Below the pieces are notes generated by a model. It was not told the origin of the DNA, did not search any database, and saw only the letters and a program-made list of their open reading frames with translations. Of a DNA stretch of 27,280 nucleotides, positions 8,522 through 22,434 are shown one piece after another. Source of the DNA: a virus; IMG/VR virus record IMGVR_UViG_3300024517_000094, positions 1-27,280 of that record; one strand, 5' to 3'. The translations under genes were made by a program, and so were the position numbers. Within the stretch, counting starts at the first letter, position 1; every line of letters starts with the position of its first letter.

Positions 8522-9729
8522 TGTTCAAAGTGTTTTTGCGTGAAACTTTCTTTTAATTTGACCTTCTTATAAATCTGTAACTCAATACCATTTTCTGCCA
8601 TTATGAACCACACTTCAGGCGGTGTTTCTCTATCCTTTGATGTGGCTCTATCCCTTCCTTGTAGGTAGCTTAAGGCACTAAACTCAATATTGTAATAAAC
8701 TAAGCAATCAGCACTAGATAAATTAACGCCCTCTCGGCTGCTTCTAATCTGACCAACGTATGTAGCCTCAGAATCTAAATTAAACGCTTCAGGGTTATCC
8801 GTACAGTTTGGAATCATTGCCTTAATCATTGCAGCTTCTTCCTGGTAGACCGTGAAGATGGCTATTTTACGACCTTCAAACTTTCGGATGATAGCTTTGA
8901 CTTTCGTGTTATCAACTTGCCTTGTTTCGTTCTCGCAGATTACAGTACCTCCACAAAGTTGGTGAACCTTTGACTGCATTTTTACGCCAGTATCCGCTAG
9001 TATTACATCCTCTTTACCCTCATAAATCCCATCGTTTGAGATGGCTTTAATCATCTTGTAAGTTGATGGTCGCATTGGAACGGTCAAAACGTTCTCAATT
9101 ATTGTTTGCGTGAACCCAGCTTGTTTCTGCGTGTACGATAGCATCAAAGGTCTAACGTAAGGCTCTATCTGATTCCATCTAGCATTAGAATAGTCATTGA
9201 CTGCCTGACCAGTACCCACGTATGTTTTACCAATAGTCACGAAGTCTTTTGCCCAGGCGTAGAAATTACGGTACTTAGCGAAAGGGCTAAACGGATGCAG
9301 TTGGAACTGATGGAATAGCTGAGAAAATCCTTCAGGACTTGGTGTACCTGATAAAAGAATTACGTAGCTGTTTTGGTCAATCATTGCCTTCAATTGCTTA
9401 TAACGCTTTGACGGCTTCGGAAACGTTCCGCAACAATGCGCCTCATCAATAACAAAGTATTTAAACTTCTCAGTTACCTTGTGAAGGCTCTCGTAGTTGG
9501 TTACTACGGCATCAAAACCGATTAGTTTAGCATCCTCCTCAATTGACTTAATAGCTTTCTTTTTCGTTACGAATAGGCATCTATCAGCACCTATCTTTTG
9601 AAGCGTGGCTAATGCGGTTAGGGTTTTCCCAGTTCTCACTTCCATTGACAAGTAAACGAGTCGTCTTTTAGTTAAGACGTTAGACGCTTGGTCGGATAGT
9701 GTTTCTTGGTAATCTCTAAGTTTAATCAT
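8494..9729 (-). CDS. SNF2-like DEAH-box helicase
   Basis: A 411-residue superfamily 2 ATPase. Motifs: a Q-like start (LRDYQ, 4-8), Walker A EVRTGKT (30-36), DEAH (95-98), SGTP (127-130), and in the C-terminal domain GVNLSSADCLVYYN with motif VI QGRDRATS (357-364). The compact layout matches phage SNF2/DEAD helicases that pair with VRR-NUC proteins. The likely job is DNA translocation or fork remodelling during replication or recombination. It overlaps both neighbours: its ATG meets the stop of the primase-helicase gene (ATGA), and its 3' end runs 28 nt into the nuclease gene. All helicase motifs appear intact. Confidence 0.9.
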   Translation of the reverse strand: MIKLRDYQETLSDQASNVLTKRRLVYLSMEVRTGKTLTALATLQKIGADRCLFVTKKKAIKSIEEDAKLIGFDAVVTNYESLHKVTEKFKYFVIDEAHCCGTFPKPSKRYKQLKAMIDQNSYVILLSGTPSPEGFSQLFHQFQLHPFSPFAKYRNFYAWAKDFVTIGKTYVGTGQAVNDYSNARWNQIEPYVRPLMLSYTQKQAGFTQTIIENVLTVPMRPSTYKMIKAISNDGIYEGKEDVILADTGVKMQSKVHQLCGGTVICENETRQVDNTKVKAIIRKFEGRKIAIFTVYQEEAAMIKAMIPNCTDNPEAFNLDSEATYVGQIRSSREGVNLSSADCLVYYNIEFSALSYLQGRDRATSKDRETPPEVWFIMAENGIELQIYKKVKLKESFTQKHFEQWKQSIKPK

Positions 9730-12125
9730 ATCTCAAAAGGGTCTGAATAGTCAATATCATCTATGTTTTCCATTTCCGTTTGGTTATCTCCATCCTCAAA
9801 CTTTATCCATCTGAAATGGCTTTTTCCTTGTGATACTTTTAAGCCTTTGAAACTTCCGTATGATTCCAGCCAACCTGTGAATTTTCGTTGTGATAGCTTT
9901 CGGTCAAAATCTTTATACTCTAAAACAAACTCGCCAAACTTCAATGCTTTATCTAGCCTTTCATTAATAGGTAGATTTTCATCACACCACTCAACAAACT
10001 CTGAAGACGTTTCTTTGATGAACTTTCTTTGCTCCAAGTTGACAGATTCGTGCGCTACTAAACCGTTAGCTAAATAGTATTGAACGCATCCAATCATAAA
10101 GTCATCAAACCGCTTCCATTCAGCCGCATCCCAATCATCAAACAGCATCTTGCCAAACTCATCAAATGGAGTATGGTGTGAACCAAAGTAGCTGCTAAAT
10201 TCAATCTCGAACTTTCTACGCTCAAACGAACCACCAACGCCTCCAATGGTGTAGTTAGTAGTTATGACCACTTTAGGCGAACGGCTAACAGGTACGTGAA
10301 TAGCATCCTTGTTTTTTTTCTCTAAAGTTATGCCTTCAGTAATCAAACTAAATAACTGCTCAAAGGCGAAGTTCTTTTTCACATCGTCAAAGACCAGCAC
10401 CTGGGTATCTGCTCCAACCGTTTGATATGGAAATGATTTATCGAAACTGAATTGCTTACCGTCCAAAGTAGCTACTCTTTTCATATGGTTGATGGCGTTG
10501 CAGAACATACCCTTTCCACTTCCACCGTTGGGGTTGTCGCTTATCAATTCATCATTCATTATGATAGCCCTATTTTGTCCTGAAGTCTTGCAAGAATGGA
10601 GCAAGTAACCGATAACTGAACGAAAGGAATTAAAACGCTGTTCATCGTTTGCGGTAACCAACCTTAAAAATTTCTCATACATCCCACTAATTGAACGCTC
10701 TGCCGTATATTCCCTATCAATTACGTGCTTTTTCCAAACAAACCCATCAAGGTCAATGTAGTCTATTGGTTTCACTTCATTCTTTGTAATCTCTAAAGCG
10801 CAGTTATTAAAATATAAGTAGCAAGTAGTATCTGTGTCCTTCTTTAGATTTACTTCCGCGGTTTGAAGCATTGACAAATAATCCTCTTTAAATAGCCGCG
10901 TTTGGTTAGCCATAAAATCGTATGGAGCATAGCCGATATCAGTTCTTTCGGACAAGTAATCTAGAACAAAATCCTTTATAAAAGTTGGCGCAGTATCTTC
11001 TAGCAAATTACTATCAATTTTTACGAATAGATAAGACATAGCACCCTCAGGAAAGAACTTGCAGAACTGGTTTTGCTCCAGAAAGAACTTGTATTTGTGT
11101 GGGCTTAGTTGAACCTTTCCTTTGTCAGTATAGCCCCAAAAATCGGTGACGGCTAGTGTATCTTTAACAGACTCAAGAGCGGATTCTAAATCTTTTATTT
11201 CAGGAAGAACTTTTGCTATTTCAGATTGCTTCTTTCCTGACCTTATCAGCTTTTCAACCTTCGCTTTTGCGTGGTCATCTTCAAAGAATCTTGTCCCGTG
11301 TCTTTCGGTGCTTCTATAAGCAGACTTAACAACTCTACTTATTTCAGTTTCGGTAAATGGCTCATCACCACCTTGAGCGTATTGGTGCAGGTGCCTTTCA
11401 GCTTCGTTTTGGTTAATGCCGAAAGAGTTTAAAGCATTGGCAAACTTATACATATTTTGGTTTCTGCTTCCTTTAGTATTACCATACTTCTTTTCCCACC
11501 AAGTAGTTAAGTTAGAAATAATACGGTTCTCGCTTTGGACTGGAATAAAGCATTCATCCATATTTTTACCAACGCTTTGCTCGTCAGGCTCTGCAATCTC
11601 AACCCAGGTTAAAGCATCCACGTTTAGATAAAGTTCGGGGTCATAACTTTCGTAGCAAACTCTACTAATATCACTAACACTTTTATCAAAATATTCACAG
11701 TCCCAAACTAGTGCAATCGAATCAAAGTAAGCTTTGTGTTTAGACGGGTCAGGTGGTATTCTCACTAGTACCTTTAATCCGTTACCGCTGGGGCTAGTAA
11801 AAACTGAATAGGTGTATTCCCAAGCCTCTAAAGTGTCGCGGTAAGATTGGAGCATATCAGCATCGGGGAATTTGTCAAAGTCTAAGCATATTAAACCGCT
11901 TGGTTGTTTTAATCCTGATATTGAACGATTCGTAAACGTTCCGCTGAAACAAATAGAAGGAAGCCACTTCTTTAATTCATCACGCTTTCCCTTGTCCGAT
12001 TCTAATCTAATACGGCTCAGTAGTTCTTTGCTGTTGCCGTTCTTTATGCGACTTAGCGCAAAGTCAACAGACCTATTAAACCCAGCGGCTGTTGCTAGAA
12101 TGTTTTTGAATATGGTTATTGTCAT
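9726..12125 (-). CDS. Primase-helicase (BT4734/VirE-N primase fused to D5-like helicase)
   Basis: A 799-residue bifunctional replication protein. Residues about 1-180 form an archaeo-eukaryotic-type primase of the BT4734/VirE-N family: metal-binding LDFD (81-84), SPSGNGLKV (111-119) and SVSDISRVCYES (149-160). A helical linker (about 215-275, NQNMYKFANALNSFGINQNE) looks like a primase C-terminal domain. Residues about 480-740 are a superfamily 3, D5-like helicase: Walker A NPNGGSGKG (531-539), Walker B VLVFDD (576-581), sensor ITTNY (621-625), arginine finger ERR (635-637). It should unwind the origin and prime synthesis. A TTG at 12167 extends the frame by 14 residues, but this lies inside a strong RNA structure; the ATG at 12125 starts the conserved MTITIFKN and is preferred. 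Confidence 0.9.
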   Translation of the reverse strand: MTITIFKNILATAAGFNRSVDFALSRIKNGNSKELLSRIRLESDKGKRDELKKWLPSICFSGTFTNRSISGLKQPSGLICLDFDKFPDADMLQSYRDTLEAWEYTYSVFTSPSGNGLKVLVRIPPDPSKHKAYFDSIALVWDCEYFDKSVSDISRVCYESYDPELYLNVDALTWVEIAEPDEQSVGKNMDECFIPVQSENRIISNLTTWWEKKYGNTKGSRNQNMYKFANALNSFGINQNEAERHLHQYAQGGDEPFTETEISRVVKSAYRSTERHGTRFFEDDHAKAKVEKLIRSGKKQSEIAKVLPEIKDLESALESVKDTLAVTDFWGYTDKGKVQLSPHKYKFFLEQNQFCKFFPEGAMSYLFVKIDSNLLEDTAPTFIKDFVLDYLSERTDIGYAPYDFMANQTRLFKEDYLSMLQTAEVNLKKDTDTTCYLYFNNCALEITKNEVKPIDYIDLDGFVWKKHVIDREYTAERSISGMYEKFLRLVTANDEQRFNSFRSVIGYLLHSCKTSGQNRAIIMNDELISDNPNGGSGKGMFCNAINHMKRVATLDGKQFSFDKSFPYQTVGADTQVLVFDDVKKNFAFEQLFSLITEGITLEKKNKDAIHVPVSRSPKVVITTNYTIGGVGGSFERRKFEIEFSSYFGSHHTPFDEFGKMLFDDWDAAEWKRFDDFMIGCVQYYLANGLVAHESVNLEQRKFIKETSSEFVEWCDENLPINERLDKALKFGEFVLEYKDFDRKLSQRKFTGWLESYGSFKGLKVSQGKSHFRWIKFEDGDNQTEMENIDDIDYSDPFEI

Positions 12126-12135
12126 TTTAAATAAC

Positions 12136-12211
12136 CCTAAAGGAGCAGTATGTGCCAACATACCCAAATGCGCTACCGACCAGGTAGGAACGCATAAGTT
12201 GCCCCTTTAGG
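12136..12211 (-). ncRNA. Structured 5' leader: three-way-junction RNA before primase-helicase
   Basis: In the minus-strand transcript CCUAAAGGGGCA (12211-12200) pairs with UGCUCCUUUAGG (12147-12136), a 12-bp closing stem P1. Inside are P2 (AUGCG + CUACC against GGUAG + CGCAU, with a UUC bulge and loop UGGUC, 12195-12168) and P3 (GUAUGU / ACAUAC with loop UGGC, 12163-12148). The junction strands are ACUU, UUGG and none. One P1 pair is G-U in the minus-strand RNA but would be A-C in the plus-strand RNA, so the fold favours the sense of the downstream gene. The structure ends 10 nt before the ATG at 12125 and lies downstream of a good promoter. I do not recognise it as a known riboswitch or ribozyme. 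Confidence 0.6.
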
Positions 12212-12281
12212 AATTTCTTTTTAGTACGTTTTTCTGTAACCTGGTCATTCTAAAGAATCCGCTTTTGGCTTGCGAACAATG

Positions 12282-12310
12282 CAAATGTAAATAATAATTC
12301 AATACCACAA
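12282..12310 (-). promoter_or_regulatory. Promoter for the primase-helicase operon
   Basis: Minus-strand -7 box TACATTTG (12289-12282) with TTG (12310-12308) 18 nt upstream, a close match to the Bacteroidetes consensus. Expected transcription start is near 12275, giving a leader of about 150 nt that contains the three-way-junction RNA. An AT-rich block (TTTTTTAAAAAAG) lies further upstream. Confidence 0.65.
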
Positions 12311-12352
12311 CACATTTATTTTCTTTTTTAAAAAAGCACTAGTGTACACAAA

Positions 12353-12524
12353 TTACGCCACATCGAAAAACCACTAAGGCGTTAGAGTATCAATGAGTTA
12401 CGCCATTTACGCCCTATCTTTATCTTTTTTCAGATTTTCAAAATAAAAAAAATAGCCCGATTCGTCAAAGTAAAAAAGAATAGAGAGTAGGGAATTAGTG
12501 TATAAGTCGTAGATAGGGCGTAAA
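12353..12524. other. Candidate replication origin: repeated TWACGCC motifs
   Basis: Five copies of a short motif occur in 172 bp of AT-rich non-coding DNA. TTACGCCA is at 12353-12360 and 12398-12405, TTTACGCCCTATC at 12406-12418, an inverted copy GGCGTTA at 12378-12384, and GATAGGGCGTAAA at 12512-12524. The last is a perfect 13-bp inverted partner of 12406-12418. Long A/T runs lie between (12421-12480). Iterons plus an AT-rich zone beside the primase-helicase gene are typical of phage origins. The repeats could equally be operators for the adjacent promoter. No classic DnaA box was found. Confidence 0.45.
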
Positions 12525-12550
12525 AAAACCCCCACCGATATGGCAGGGGC
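12521..12550 (-). terminator. Rho-independent terminator after SSB-like gene
   Basis: On the minus strand GCCCC-TGCC-ATATC-GGT-GGGGG forms a GC-rich hairpin (12550-12529) followed directly by TTTTTTT (12528-12522). It lies 25 nt beyond the stop of the SSB-like gene and closes the recombination operon before the origin region. Confidence 0.8.
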
Positions 12551-12574
12551 TTGGTTAAGGGGTTGGATTAGATT

Positions 12575-12934
12575 TTAAAAGGGCAGAATCTCACTTTCTT
12601 CATCTTCAATCGGTTGTGGCGTTTGCGCGGCTTGCTCAACTCGTTCGCCTGCCATTACTTTCCACGCCTGGAGACTTGTGTAGTACTTGCCTTTCCACTC
12701 GTTTGTCCGTATGTTAAAGCTAACCTCAACTTCTTGCCCTAGCTTGTTGTACTTGATGAAATTATCGACTTTTTCCGTGCCGAATATTTCAAATGCAAAG
12801 ATTTGTTCAGCCCCTTCGTAGCCGTTATTATTGGCAATTACGAAATTGAGTTTTTTCCATTCTTTGCCGTTTTGCGAAGTACCTGACTCAACTGGTAGCA
12901 CATTCTTGATTGTTCCTTTTTCTTTGTATTCCAT
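12575..12934 (-). CDS. ssb: Single-strand DNA-binding protein, DUF3127-like
   Basis: A 119-residue OB-fold-like protein. The pattern GTIKNVLPVESGTSQNGKEW - KKLNFVI - EQIFAFEIFGTEKVDNF - VEVSFNIRTNEWKGKYYTSLQAWKV matches the DUF3127 family, which is largely confined to Bacteroidetes. The C-terminus is acidic and ends EDEESEILPF, like the protein-interaction tail of bacterial SSB (which ends DDDIPF). It would coat single-stranded DNA during phage replication and recombination and recruit partners through the tail. Neighbours fit: it follows the ERF annealing protein and Gp157, the usual recombination cassette, and is the last gene before a terminator. Confidence 0.8.
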   Translation of the reverse strand: MEYKEKGTIKNVLPVESGTSQNGKEWKKLNFVIANNNGYEGAEQIFAFEIFGTEKVDNFIKYNKLGQEVEVSFNIRTNEWKGKYYTSLQAWKVMAGERVEQAAQTPQPIEDEESEILPF

Positions 12935-21064: not shown

Positions 21065-22434
21065 ATCTCAGTTTGTTCTTTTGGTAAATAACCTTCCATT
21101 GATAAGCCAATTAATCCTCTGATTTCTTCATCACTCATTTTTTCGAGAACTTTTGTGGCAACTAATGGACTTAACGCGCTTAATGCATCAGATGTAGATG
21201 TTCCGCTTTCGCCATCTTCACTAGCTATTGGCGCATATCCTCCAAGTTCTCTAATTTCATCGGCTGTTAATTTATCAACTAGCCAATCGGGGACTATATC
21301 AATCAATTCTAGAGGGTCAATACTCCAATCGTATTGAGGAAAAACTATTTCCAAAGATTGACTAACCAACTTTTGATAATCCAATGCGGTTAACGAAAAC
21401 AACTTAATAGTGTTAATTAATTCGTCATTGTTGCCTAACTGACTTGACCGCGCAAAGCCAGGAACAAGGATAGTTGGTACTTCCATCCCCCTGCATACCC
21501 TTCGCCCGATACGGTCAACCGCTTCTGTTGTTGAATTGAGTAGTTTCTCAGAACTAAACACCGTTAACTCAGGTGCTTCTTCCTTCTTGTCAACTTGAAT
21601 GTGTAGAATCGGGTCGGCATCCTCACCGCAAAACCCTTCTACAGATTTATCAAAATAATCTTGCTCAGTTCGTCCGCTTTCGTCCTCCGTTACGTCATCA
21701 ATTTCGCCAATGGTTGTAAGAATGGCATCGGGTCGAAATCCTTTCTTTACGTTGCGCCAATCCAAACGACCTAAAGCCGCATCAGATTCGATTTCTTCCA
21801 TCGCAGCCCACGCTACAGGTTTCGGATAAATCTTTTGCCCTGCCTTCTGCTCATAATGGTAGACAATATCACCTACCTGGTAGCCGTATTCTTTTATTTG
21901 TTCTGCAACTCTTCTATTTCTGCTTTCGGGTGATTCGTGAGAATCGAAAACATCCATAAAAACACGGTCTTTTTTCAAGTCCTTGCCGTTGGCTAACTCA
22001 TCGTTCACATAGTAACCGCCTTCATCAGTAGCCCTAACGTTCTCAAATTCTAAAGCGTACACTCTAAACGGTTCGCCTTTGATGTTGTAAACTACTTTCA
22101 AAGCAATGCCACGGAATAACCCTGCAAAGTCGGCTAATTCAGCCGCTAACTGGTTAGTAGTTTGACGAGCGTTAATCTTCATTGAAGAAACACCCGTATC
22201 TGCAAACCCTTTTCCCTTAATAAAGGTAGATTTCGTCTCCCGACAACTTGAAGCCGTTACGCTAGATTCTATCGCTAACAACAACTCGTTAGGCAATAGG
22301 TTATTTTTGCCGTAATCGTAACGATTCGCACTTTTATTGTGCTTAATCTCAGCAACTCGGTTCTGACCAACAACAGCCTTTTTGCTGAAGTTAGTTTTAA
22401 CCTGTTTTGCTCTATTCTTTCCTTTGATAGCCAC
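21061..22434 (-). CDS. Phage portal protein
   Basis: A 457-residue protein with the general plan of phage portals, which form the ring through which DNA enters the head and to which the tail attaches. It has a basic N-terminus (MAIKGKNRAKQVKTNFSKKA), LLPNELLLAIESSVTASSCR, and a mixed stem/wing region. Near residues 295-345 comes SSEKLLNSTTEAVDRIGRRVCRGMEVP with ILVPGFARSSQLGNN, where other portals have an 'F.VP..LLG' phrase. A helical C-terminal part (LTADEIRELGGY) carries an acidic Ser/Thr-rich tail. Identification rests on length, pattern and position among head genes. It is downstream of the capsid gene, the reverse of the usual order. Confidence 0.72.
   Translation of the reverse strand: MAIKGKNRAKQVKTNFSKKAVVGQNRVAEIKHNKSANRYDYGKNNLLPNELLLAIESSVTASSCRETKSTFIKGKGFADTGVSSMKINARQTTNQLAAELADFAGLFRGIALKVVYNIKGEPFRVYALEFENVRATDEGGYYVNDELANGKDLKKDRVFMDVFDSHESPESRNRRVAEQIKEYGYQVGDIVYHYEQKAGQKIYPKPVAWAAMEEIESDAALGRLDWRNVKKGFRPDAILTTIGEIDDVTEDESGRTEQDYFDKSVEGFCGEDADPILHIQVDKKEEAPELTVFSSEKLLNSTTEAVDRIGRRVCRGMEVPTILVPGFARSSQLGNNDELINTIKLFSLTALDYQKLVSQSLEIVFPQYDWSIDPLELIDIVPDWLVDKLTADEIRELGGYAPIASEDGESGTSTSDALSALSPLVATKVLEKMSDEEIRGLIGLSMEGYLPKEQTEI

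Follow-up and report, generated by a model that had tools for sequence, protein, structure and literature searches.

A probably pseudoknotted leader RNA before the primase-helicase gene of a tailed-phage record, a possible attenuator with relatives in Bacteroidota phages

What kind of RNA precedes the primase-helicase gene in the virus record IMGVR_UViG_3300024517_000094 of IMG/VR? The window analyzed here is this complete record of 27,280 bases, perhaps a fragment of the viral genome, and the leader in question lies on its minus strand between a promoter motif and the start codon of the gene. The original prediction had read it as an unrecognized three-way-junction RNA that controls translation of the primase-helicase. 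Judged by the related leaders, the real common feature is not the three-way junction but an early segment (X) that pairs with a loop (X') inside a long stem, P1. We see about an even chance that the leader is a cis-acting pseudoknotted attenuator of the primase operon and belongs to an undescribed leader class of Bacteroidota phages. Sequence comparison shows the architecture of this class, its covariation, its coding-strand sense, the U-tract of the relatives, the position, and the recurrence of private X/X' pairs across the operons of one phage.

In the window, the proposed stems were found base for base: a P1 of 12 bp, an arm 1 of 10 bp with a 3-nucleotide (nt) bulge, and an arm 2 of 6 bp (Table 1). 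As claimed, zero nucleotides separate arm 2 from P1, and one P1 pair is a G-U pair in the minus-strand RNA. The minimum free energy (MFE) fold of 12275-12125 (minus strand) contains 10 of the 12 P1 pairs and both arms at −41.1 kcal/mol (z −2.20; 4 of 200 shuffles were at least as good). By itself, this folding is moderately better than chance and thus suggestive; the comparative evidence decides. The distances of the prediction hold as well, with the promoter box 70 nt before P1 and only 12135-12126 between the structure and the ATG. Two long-range complementarities and a 5' hairpin (H1), none of them in the original prediction, come on top of the stems. Of 5,000 shuffles of the upstream stretch, 0.12% reach the 8-nt match of X and X', which is significant alone; full pairing over 8 bp would open the top of arm 1. 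The 5-nt match between the H1 loop and arm 2 is reached in 24.9% of shuffles of the whole upstream stretch and in 2.0% of shuffles of the H1 loop only, and is not significant alone. Both matches occur jointly in 0.02% of shuffles.

Ten relative loci were found. One of them (L002) has the leader of the window, the RNA of L007 recurs in L011, and L008 and L009 are without the 5' part. The primases of L003 to L007 and L010 are 64-68% identical to the window primase. Five of these leaders (L003, L004, L006, L007, and L010, the compact group) share little sequence with the window and follow a common plan: a promoter box, a short hairpin H1, a linker, and the long stem P1 closed over a hairpin H2, with the H1 loop complementary to the H2 loop. 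The loop pairs all differ (GTGCGA/TCGCAC, GGTGCAA/TTGCACC, GGCTCAG/CTGAGCC, GTAGCAG/CTGCTAC, and TAGCGG/CCGCTA). Within the group, 5 of 6 kissing pairs, 6 of 9 pairs of P1, 4 of 5 of H1, and 2 of 3 of H2 are changed on both sides, while non-standard pairs occupy 0 of 30 kissing cells and 1 of 25 H1 cells. For these counts the pairs were placed by hand; a MAFFT alignment misplaced the L006 hairpin. The cis-placed minus-strand RNA proposed for the primase leader is thus supported, as the same kind of RNA covaries strongly in the relatives. A fold that is conserved with nearly all letters changed points to an undescribed RNA switch. Because the letters turn over while the pairing stays, the class is hard for sequence-based family searches.

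L005: This leader, whose primase is 67% identical, has the three-way plan of the window, including an arm 2 flush on P1, with no recognizable shared sequence. Its H1 loop TGACA matches the arm-2 loop TGTCA, corresponding to GCCAA/TTGGC in the window. Its linker matches the arm-1 loop through AGAACG or AACTGA, in two mutually exclusive registers, and this pairing stands where the window has GACCAGGT/ACCTGGTC. The three-way junction is therefore present in the window but is not a common feature, as only L005 shares it among the close relatives read.

Three further protein scans gave at least 80 loci each, and one more gave 4. Among the loci with about 50% identity, many have the same plan with yet other loops. 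We assessed the loop pairing in a test that was blind to kissing: of 229 leaders, 89 carried a promoter motif 85-230 nt ahead of the gene, and the folding, done in two parts, covered 42 non-redundant ones. Within a leader, the longest loop-loop complement was 3.93 on average, versus 2.58 across leaders; complements of at least 6 occurred within 13 of the 42 leaders versus about 1% across them, and 0 of 20,000 loop-swap permutations reached the observed sum. An architecture score that combines X, X', P1, and the U-tract, with X sought only 4-45 nt behind the motif TAnnTTTG, replaced a first, looser architecture scan, which matched most leaders and was dropped for this stricter, shuffle-controlled one. 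It was applied to 126 non-redundant promoter-anchored segments (241 leaders, 153 with a usable promoter motif). A score of at least 36 was reached by 34 of the 126 native segments versus 1 of 630 shuffled ones. The 34 top segments have 33 different X sequences. X starts at a median of 13 nt behind the promoter motif (35 nt in the window), and P1 ends at a median of 94 nt behind it. Inspected by eye, a few of these top segments look doubtful (L288|-467, L188|-469, L280, and L127, which has a better pair CTGGAAG/CTTCCAG). The element is carried by isolated Flavobacterium phages of the elemo group, and further members come from metagenome bins with the titles Dysgonamonadaceae (L288), Bacteroidota (L281), Lacinutrix (L285), and Flavobacteriaceae (L284).

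The original prediction placed the RNA under the primase-helicase gene. The element is not specific to this gene, as elements also precede other genes. Extra elements with other X sequences in the same phages stand before ERF (L218), before HNH/NUMOD4 or GIY-YIG endonucleases (L133, L134, L137, L155, and L218), and before unassigned genes; ten of the genes behind such elements were tested against Pfam, giving five endonucleases, one ERF, and four without a match. These came from a scan of both strands of the loci with 3,195 distinct segments, in which some chance-like rows lacked a U-tract or a nearby ATG and were regarded as chance. A strict filter (score of at least 34, a T-run, and an ATG within 32 nt) was applied to 13 phage records of 465 kb in all (elemo records to base 50,000), 12 chosen for carrying an element, plus the window. 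It returned 21 rows at 18 places, since two promoter motifs precede each of three elements, which were therefore counted twice. Among the 18 places, those of the window and L002 are one element and one in G014 is doubtful; G018 (L007) has no row because its ATG is 79 nt away. When 400 kb of a Pedobacter chromosome, which hold 600 promoter motifs, were put through the same filter, 0 rows came out. Three of the 13 records have 4, 3, and 2 elements, the window has 1, and L198 has 2 if an ATG 109 nt away is accepted. X and P1 differ between copies within one phage. As a side observation, the homing-type endonuclease genes (HNH or GIY-YIG) behind elements lie at L133:4825-5322, L134:6234-6920, L137:4856-5224, L155:2019-2495, and L218:7124-7918.

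The sense of the RNA was read from stems built of Watson-Crick pairs only. Where such a stem (32 cores) is interrupted and more pairing follows, the first interruption is G-U in 12 cases, A-C in 0, and another combination in 1, which is more in line with RNA from the coding strand than with an operator in the DNA. An earlier count of 35 G-U to 2 A-C was discarded, as its stem finder allowed G-U and was hence biased. Behind the last G/C of P1, T makes up a fraction of 0.59-0.90 at each of positions 1-11 and 0.28-0.41 at positions 12-14, where A rises. This profile, as for an intrinsic terminator, was obtained from the 29 of 36 segments with a long enough tail (dropped: the window, L127, L160, L209, L212, L216, and L218). 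A U-tract directly follows the hairpin in most of these 29 tails; that of the window is weak. In 25 of 34 segments, the ATG of an open frame is no more than 32 nt from P1 (median 20 nt). Translational control, the other part of the original prediction, is not supported as stated: the U-tract that stands directly behind P1 in the relatives suggests attenuation of transcription, and about 80 nt separate the end of P1 from the ATG in L003, L007, and L010.

We therefore describe the preferred mechanism, attenuation, as follows. Transcription would start just downstream of TAnnTTTG, which we take to be the consensus of the Bacteroidetes-type −7 box; in the window, the start is expected a few nucleotides downstream of TACATTTG. 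The early X, often in the H1 loop, would pair with X' in an inner loop or arm of the long hairpin P1. P1 with its U-tract would form an intrinsic terminator serving as the attenuator. As the ATG mostly follows 6-26 nt behind the hairpin, a second promoter would usually not fit in between, so the gene would have to be reached by read-through. Pairing of X with X' in the nascent RNA would set the level of read-through and, with it, the timing or strength of replication-operon expression. Private X/X' pairs would prevent cross-talk and recombination between copies. The window version would be the same device with two arms and perhaps two long-range pairings; with its weak U-tract, it could act more on translation. 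A broader form of this idea, possible but doubtful, is a sequence-free code by which many Bacteroidota phages would mark the starts of their operons: each operon would have a private lock, a pseudoknot of early mRNA bases with the loop of the mRNA's own terminator, that alone would set read-through, and any matching pair would work.

Several observations weigh against attenuation. The MFE fold pairs 12250-12243, which includes half of X, with 12136-12129 just before the ATG, and not X with X'; nested MFE folding cannot display the X:X' pseudoknot, and the 8-bp alternative could be the other state of a switch. The window tail GTTATTTAAA is a poor U-tract. A terminator scan of the window gave nothing, but as only loops of 3-8 nt are visible to it, it is blind to P1 and cannot judge this stem. 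The window pairings have no covariation of their own, as L002, the only very close record, has the same leader. With a weak U-tract and this lack of covariation, the mechanism of the window itself is the least certain. Among the relatives, the U-tract is interrupted in L138 and L146, absent in L048, and weak in L127 and L005. The architecture score was devised after examples had been seen, and it counts T behind P1, which biases the finding of at least 5 T in 9 behind P1 in 30 of the 34 top segments. Likewise, the fold z-scores of segments scoring at least 34 (median −3.06, n = 36, L198 at 0.15) are biased because the segments were chosen for their stems. At a score of at least 32, there are 52 of 1,071 native versus 29 of 1,071 shuffled segments, and at 34 or above 35 of 1,071 phage versus 9 of 600 Pedobacter segments when no T-run or ATG conditions are set. 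As the contrast shrinks at lower scores, a low threshold is unreliable. Finally, in L043 to L118 (76 loci with primases about 44-50% identical, some truncated), only L048 and L081 reach 34.

Attenuation has several rivals. A pseudoknot placed so early may hide the 5' end of the mRNA from decay, with the hairpin and its U/A-rich tail as a landing place for ribosomes; the hosts make little use of Shine-Dalgarno sites. The short distance from the motif to X would tie up the 5' end, the structure is kept without sequence conservation, and the ATG is mostly close behind P1. We regard this as unlikely, since the T-rich stretch begins at P1 and turns A-rich after 11 nt like the tail of a terminator, the ATG is far away in three compact leaders, and X in the window starts well behind the usual place. 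If the folded 5' RNA instead bound the host RNA polymerase, which would then ignore P1 and later terminators, the leader would resemble the put antiterminators. Its location just behind the promoter is that of HK022 putL (PMC9378689), some phages have several copies at different operons, and the distance from the motif to the end of P1 (median 94 nt) may be set beside the roughly 70 nt of put. Such an antiterminator is quite unlikely here, given that the two put copies share sequence while X and P1 differ between copies here, and a U-tract at the end of put is not mentioned in the introduction of that paper. A ligand riboswitch, which would also be a pseudoknotted leader with a terminator-like hairpin, is extremely improbable: no invariant pocket was found by reading, X is nearly always different, and no sequence pattern common to the window, L005, and the compact group was found by reading, without a structural alignment of the whole class.

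The alleles bear on a further rival, a trans-acting immunity or incompatibility RNA that blocks the replication genes of co-infecting relatives, like P4 CI or phage P1 C4. The location before primase-helicase genes suits such an RNA, and so do two comparisons. In elemoA and elemoE, both recorded from Flavobacterium sp. BAL314, 78 of 78 alignment columns are identical on the promoter side, 55 of 108 are alike in the RNA, and 72% of 47 columns agree behind it; the changes are matched (TGAGAGC/GCTCTCA versus GTGGAGG/CCTCCAC), and the transcripts would start just behind TATCTTTG. L146 and L150 are 92% identical upstream, 55% in the RNA, and 84% downstream. The opposite occurs as well: the RNA is kept while the upstream side changes in L160/L193 (99% versus 53%) and L171/L173 (97% versus 34%). 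Over 18 pairs of our choice, similarity in the RNA falls below that of both flanks in 7, exceeds that of both in 8, and is intermediate or equal in 3. From these mixed results, the element behaves as a cassette and not as a uniformly fast-changing stretch. Immunity was abandoned as the leading idea once some phages turned out to carry several private elements, which differ in X and precede unrelated genes. X and X' are, moreover, already satisfied in cis, a Phage_integrase match was found in 0 of 18 virus or phage records (fragments included), and there was no Rfam c4 match. We consider immunity very unlikely; avoidance of cross-pairing and recombination is, we infer, the simpler origin of the private pairs. 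Apart from this, elemoE (L318) and elemoA (L319) have largely the same annotated gene order; they differ in a replication module that starts at the leader RNA and lacks similarity in its DNA.

The attenuation reading thus concerns an apparently undescribed RNA device that recurs in phages of a major bacterial phylum and bears on the timing of replication genes in Bacteroidota phages. Isolated Flavobacterium phages with two alleles make the device testable.

Table 1 Features of the leader and its surroundings in the window
Feature	Position	Strand	Basis or remark
Primase-helicase gene downstream of the leader (BT4734-like N, PriCT_1, DUF5906)	9726..12125	−	Domain matches
Tail GTTATTTAAA, 10 nt between P1 and ATG (ATG at 12125)	12126..12135	−	Sequence; weak U-tract
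P1, 3' strand	12136..12147	−	Sequence, MFE fold
Arm 2, 6 bp, loop TGGC, flush on P1	12148..12163	−	MFE fold; flush arm 2 in L005 too
TTGGC in arm 2, partner of the H1 loop	12154..12158	−	Complementarity
Arm 1, 10 bp, 3-nt bulge TTC	12168..12195	−	MFE fold
X' = ACCTGGTC, in and beside the arm-1 loop	12178..12185	−	Complementarity to X
P1, 5' strand	12200..12211	−	Sequence, MFE fold
X = GACCAGGT, complement of the arm-1 loop region	12239..12246	−	8 nt; architecture score 42.5
5' hairpin H1, CGC-AAGCCAAAA-GCG	12260..12274	−	In MFE fold; many relatives have a 5' hairpin at the same place
GCCAA in the H1 loop, a candidate for kissing with arm 2 over 5 bp	12265..12269	−	Complementarity, weak alone
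−7 box TACATTTG, Bacteroidetes-type promoter, 70 nt before P1	12282..12289	−	Sequence
Repeats GATRKGGCGTAA, both orientations, upstream of the primase promoter	12345-12364, 12399-12419, 12511-12524 (span 12345..12524)		Sequence

The genes of the window are of the tailed-phage type and include terminase, portal, head protease, SSB, Gam/Gp157, ERF, the primase-helicase, a DEAD helicase, VRR-NUC, a C5 methylase, and a DnaA-C protein. Among 25 phage records with a similar primase, 20 are from Cellulophaga, Flavobacterium, Nonlabens, Polaribacter, Maribacter, or Tenacibaculum phages and 5 are without a named host; the nearest primase among the 25 belongs to an unnamed spring phage (44.5% identity). 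The repeats ahead of the primase promoter could be origin iterons that correspond to the type of primase. GGCGTAA repeats resembling GATRKGGCGTAA precede the promoters in several close relatives, and other relative groups have different repeats upstream (TGACAT, GTACACATT); 34 leaders read from L043 to L118 have mostly TGACAT-like ones. Elsewhere in the window, rows with scores of 32-35.5 at 22302 (+), 25959 (−), and 13934 (+) are at least 71 nt from an ATG or without one and were dismissed as chance. The window leader also contains a 22-codon frame from the ATG at 12195 to the TAA at 12127; a leader peptide like RepY of ColIb-P9 is considered unlikely.

A few leaders and searches stand apart from the class. 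The primase leader at L048:2856-2980 (record shared with L264) has a 10-bp AACCGACCAA/TTGGTCGGTT pairing inside a TTGCCCC/GGGGCAA stem, with no U-tract. What appears to be a second leader class precedes related primases in L139:2401-2500, L140, L152, L162, L175, L179, and L185 (alignment A5). Here CCCCT, which lies before a T-run, is the pairing partner of a 5' AGGGG, and the loop of a hairpin (CACTGTT, ACTTGTT, TTCTTGCTA) complements a segment behind the T-run (AACAGTG, AACAAGT, TAGCAAGAA); the two covary by reading. A shared primary motif was rejected; the pattern GACATNYTGAAAG..GGGG..GAACC matched four of the same phages and one unrelated GC-rich contig. A pattern built on the letters of the window itself found 26 stretches, of which L037 (the L002 record) was examined. 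The genome scan with A1 found no relative, and that with A3 found 11, of which 10 are titled MAG (metagenome-assembled genome). From nine named-phage regions, seven leaders were read by eye: elemoE has a clear element, and no clear one was seen in phi46:1, Panino, MW202828, P12024S, and two faecal records. A scan row in Leef_1 begins before an annotated gene and extends into it. The L136 element, used as a DNA query, matched no named phage.

The RNA was indeed unrecognized: with Rfam 15, no family reached its curated gathering score in the leaders of the window, 7 relatives, and 14 further loci (21 loci), and only two tRNAs were found elsewhere in the loci. Under permissive settings, 12080-12600 had 11 matches, each of which scored far below gathering. 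P4 CI RNA and the C4 antisense RNA of phages P1 and P7 are phage immunity RNAs, of which that of P4 acts before the primase-helicase gene. They resemble the present leaders as phage leader RNAs with self-complementary loops; the differences are the lack of an Rfam match (c4 had none in the window or the 21 loci), the several different elements in some phages, and the absence of an integrase in the searched records. The D5 N-terminal domain is presumably a primase-helicase domain. HMP_4078, as far as its description was available, is an RNA of about 109 nt, mostly from Bacteroidetes, found near a phage integrase and this domain; it is palindromic, and an intrinsic terminator was not predicted (PMC8040213). 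By description only, size, phylum, and gene context are alike, and the palindromic, non-terminator description differs; kinship is neither shown nor excluded. In the available parts of the open-access literature, with HMP_4078 left uncompared, the class was not recognized.

The available part of another report assigns c4 to RF01695 and describes STAXI as a pseudoknot in two or three tandem copies, close to the genes for SSB and other DNA-handling proteins (PMC2864571). The leader shares with STAXI, so described, a pseudoknot near DNA-handling genes, and it differs as one element, with no tandem copies in 11900-12600. With the intrinsic-terminator attenuators of bacterial operons, the class shares a hairpin near the promoter and, in most relatives, a U-tract a short way ahead of the first start codon. 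An alternative antiterminator hairpin was not recognized here; instead, a loop of the putative terminator hairpin would pair with an early part of the same RNA. HK022 putL and putR, according to the part of the source available, are phage RNAs of about 70 nt that consist of two stem-loops. They follow early promoters, occur more than once in the genome, act in cis on transcription, and share sequence between the two copies (PMC9378689). The present leaders are like put in that an RNA is placed in cis behind a promoter, in multiple copies in some phages, with an activity that is predicted here. They differ from put, as far as it is described there, in that each copy has a private sequence, and the constant part is the pairing of an early segment with a loop together with a U-tract before the ATG.

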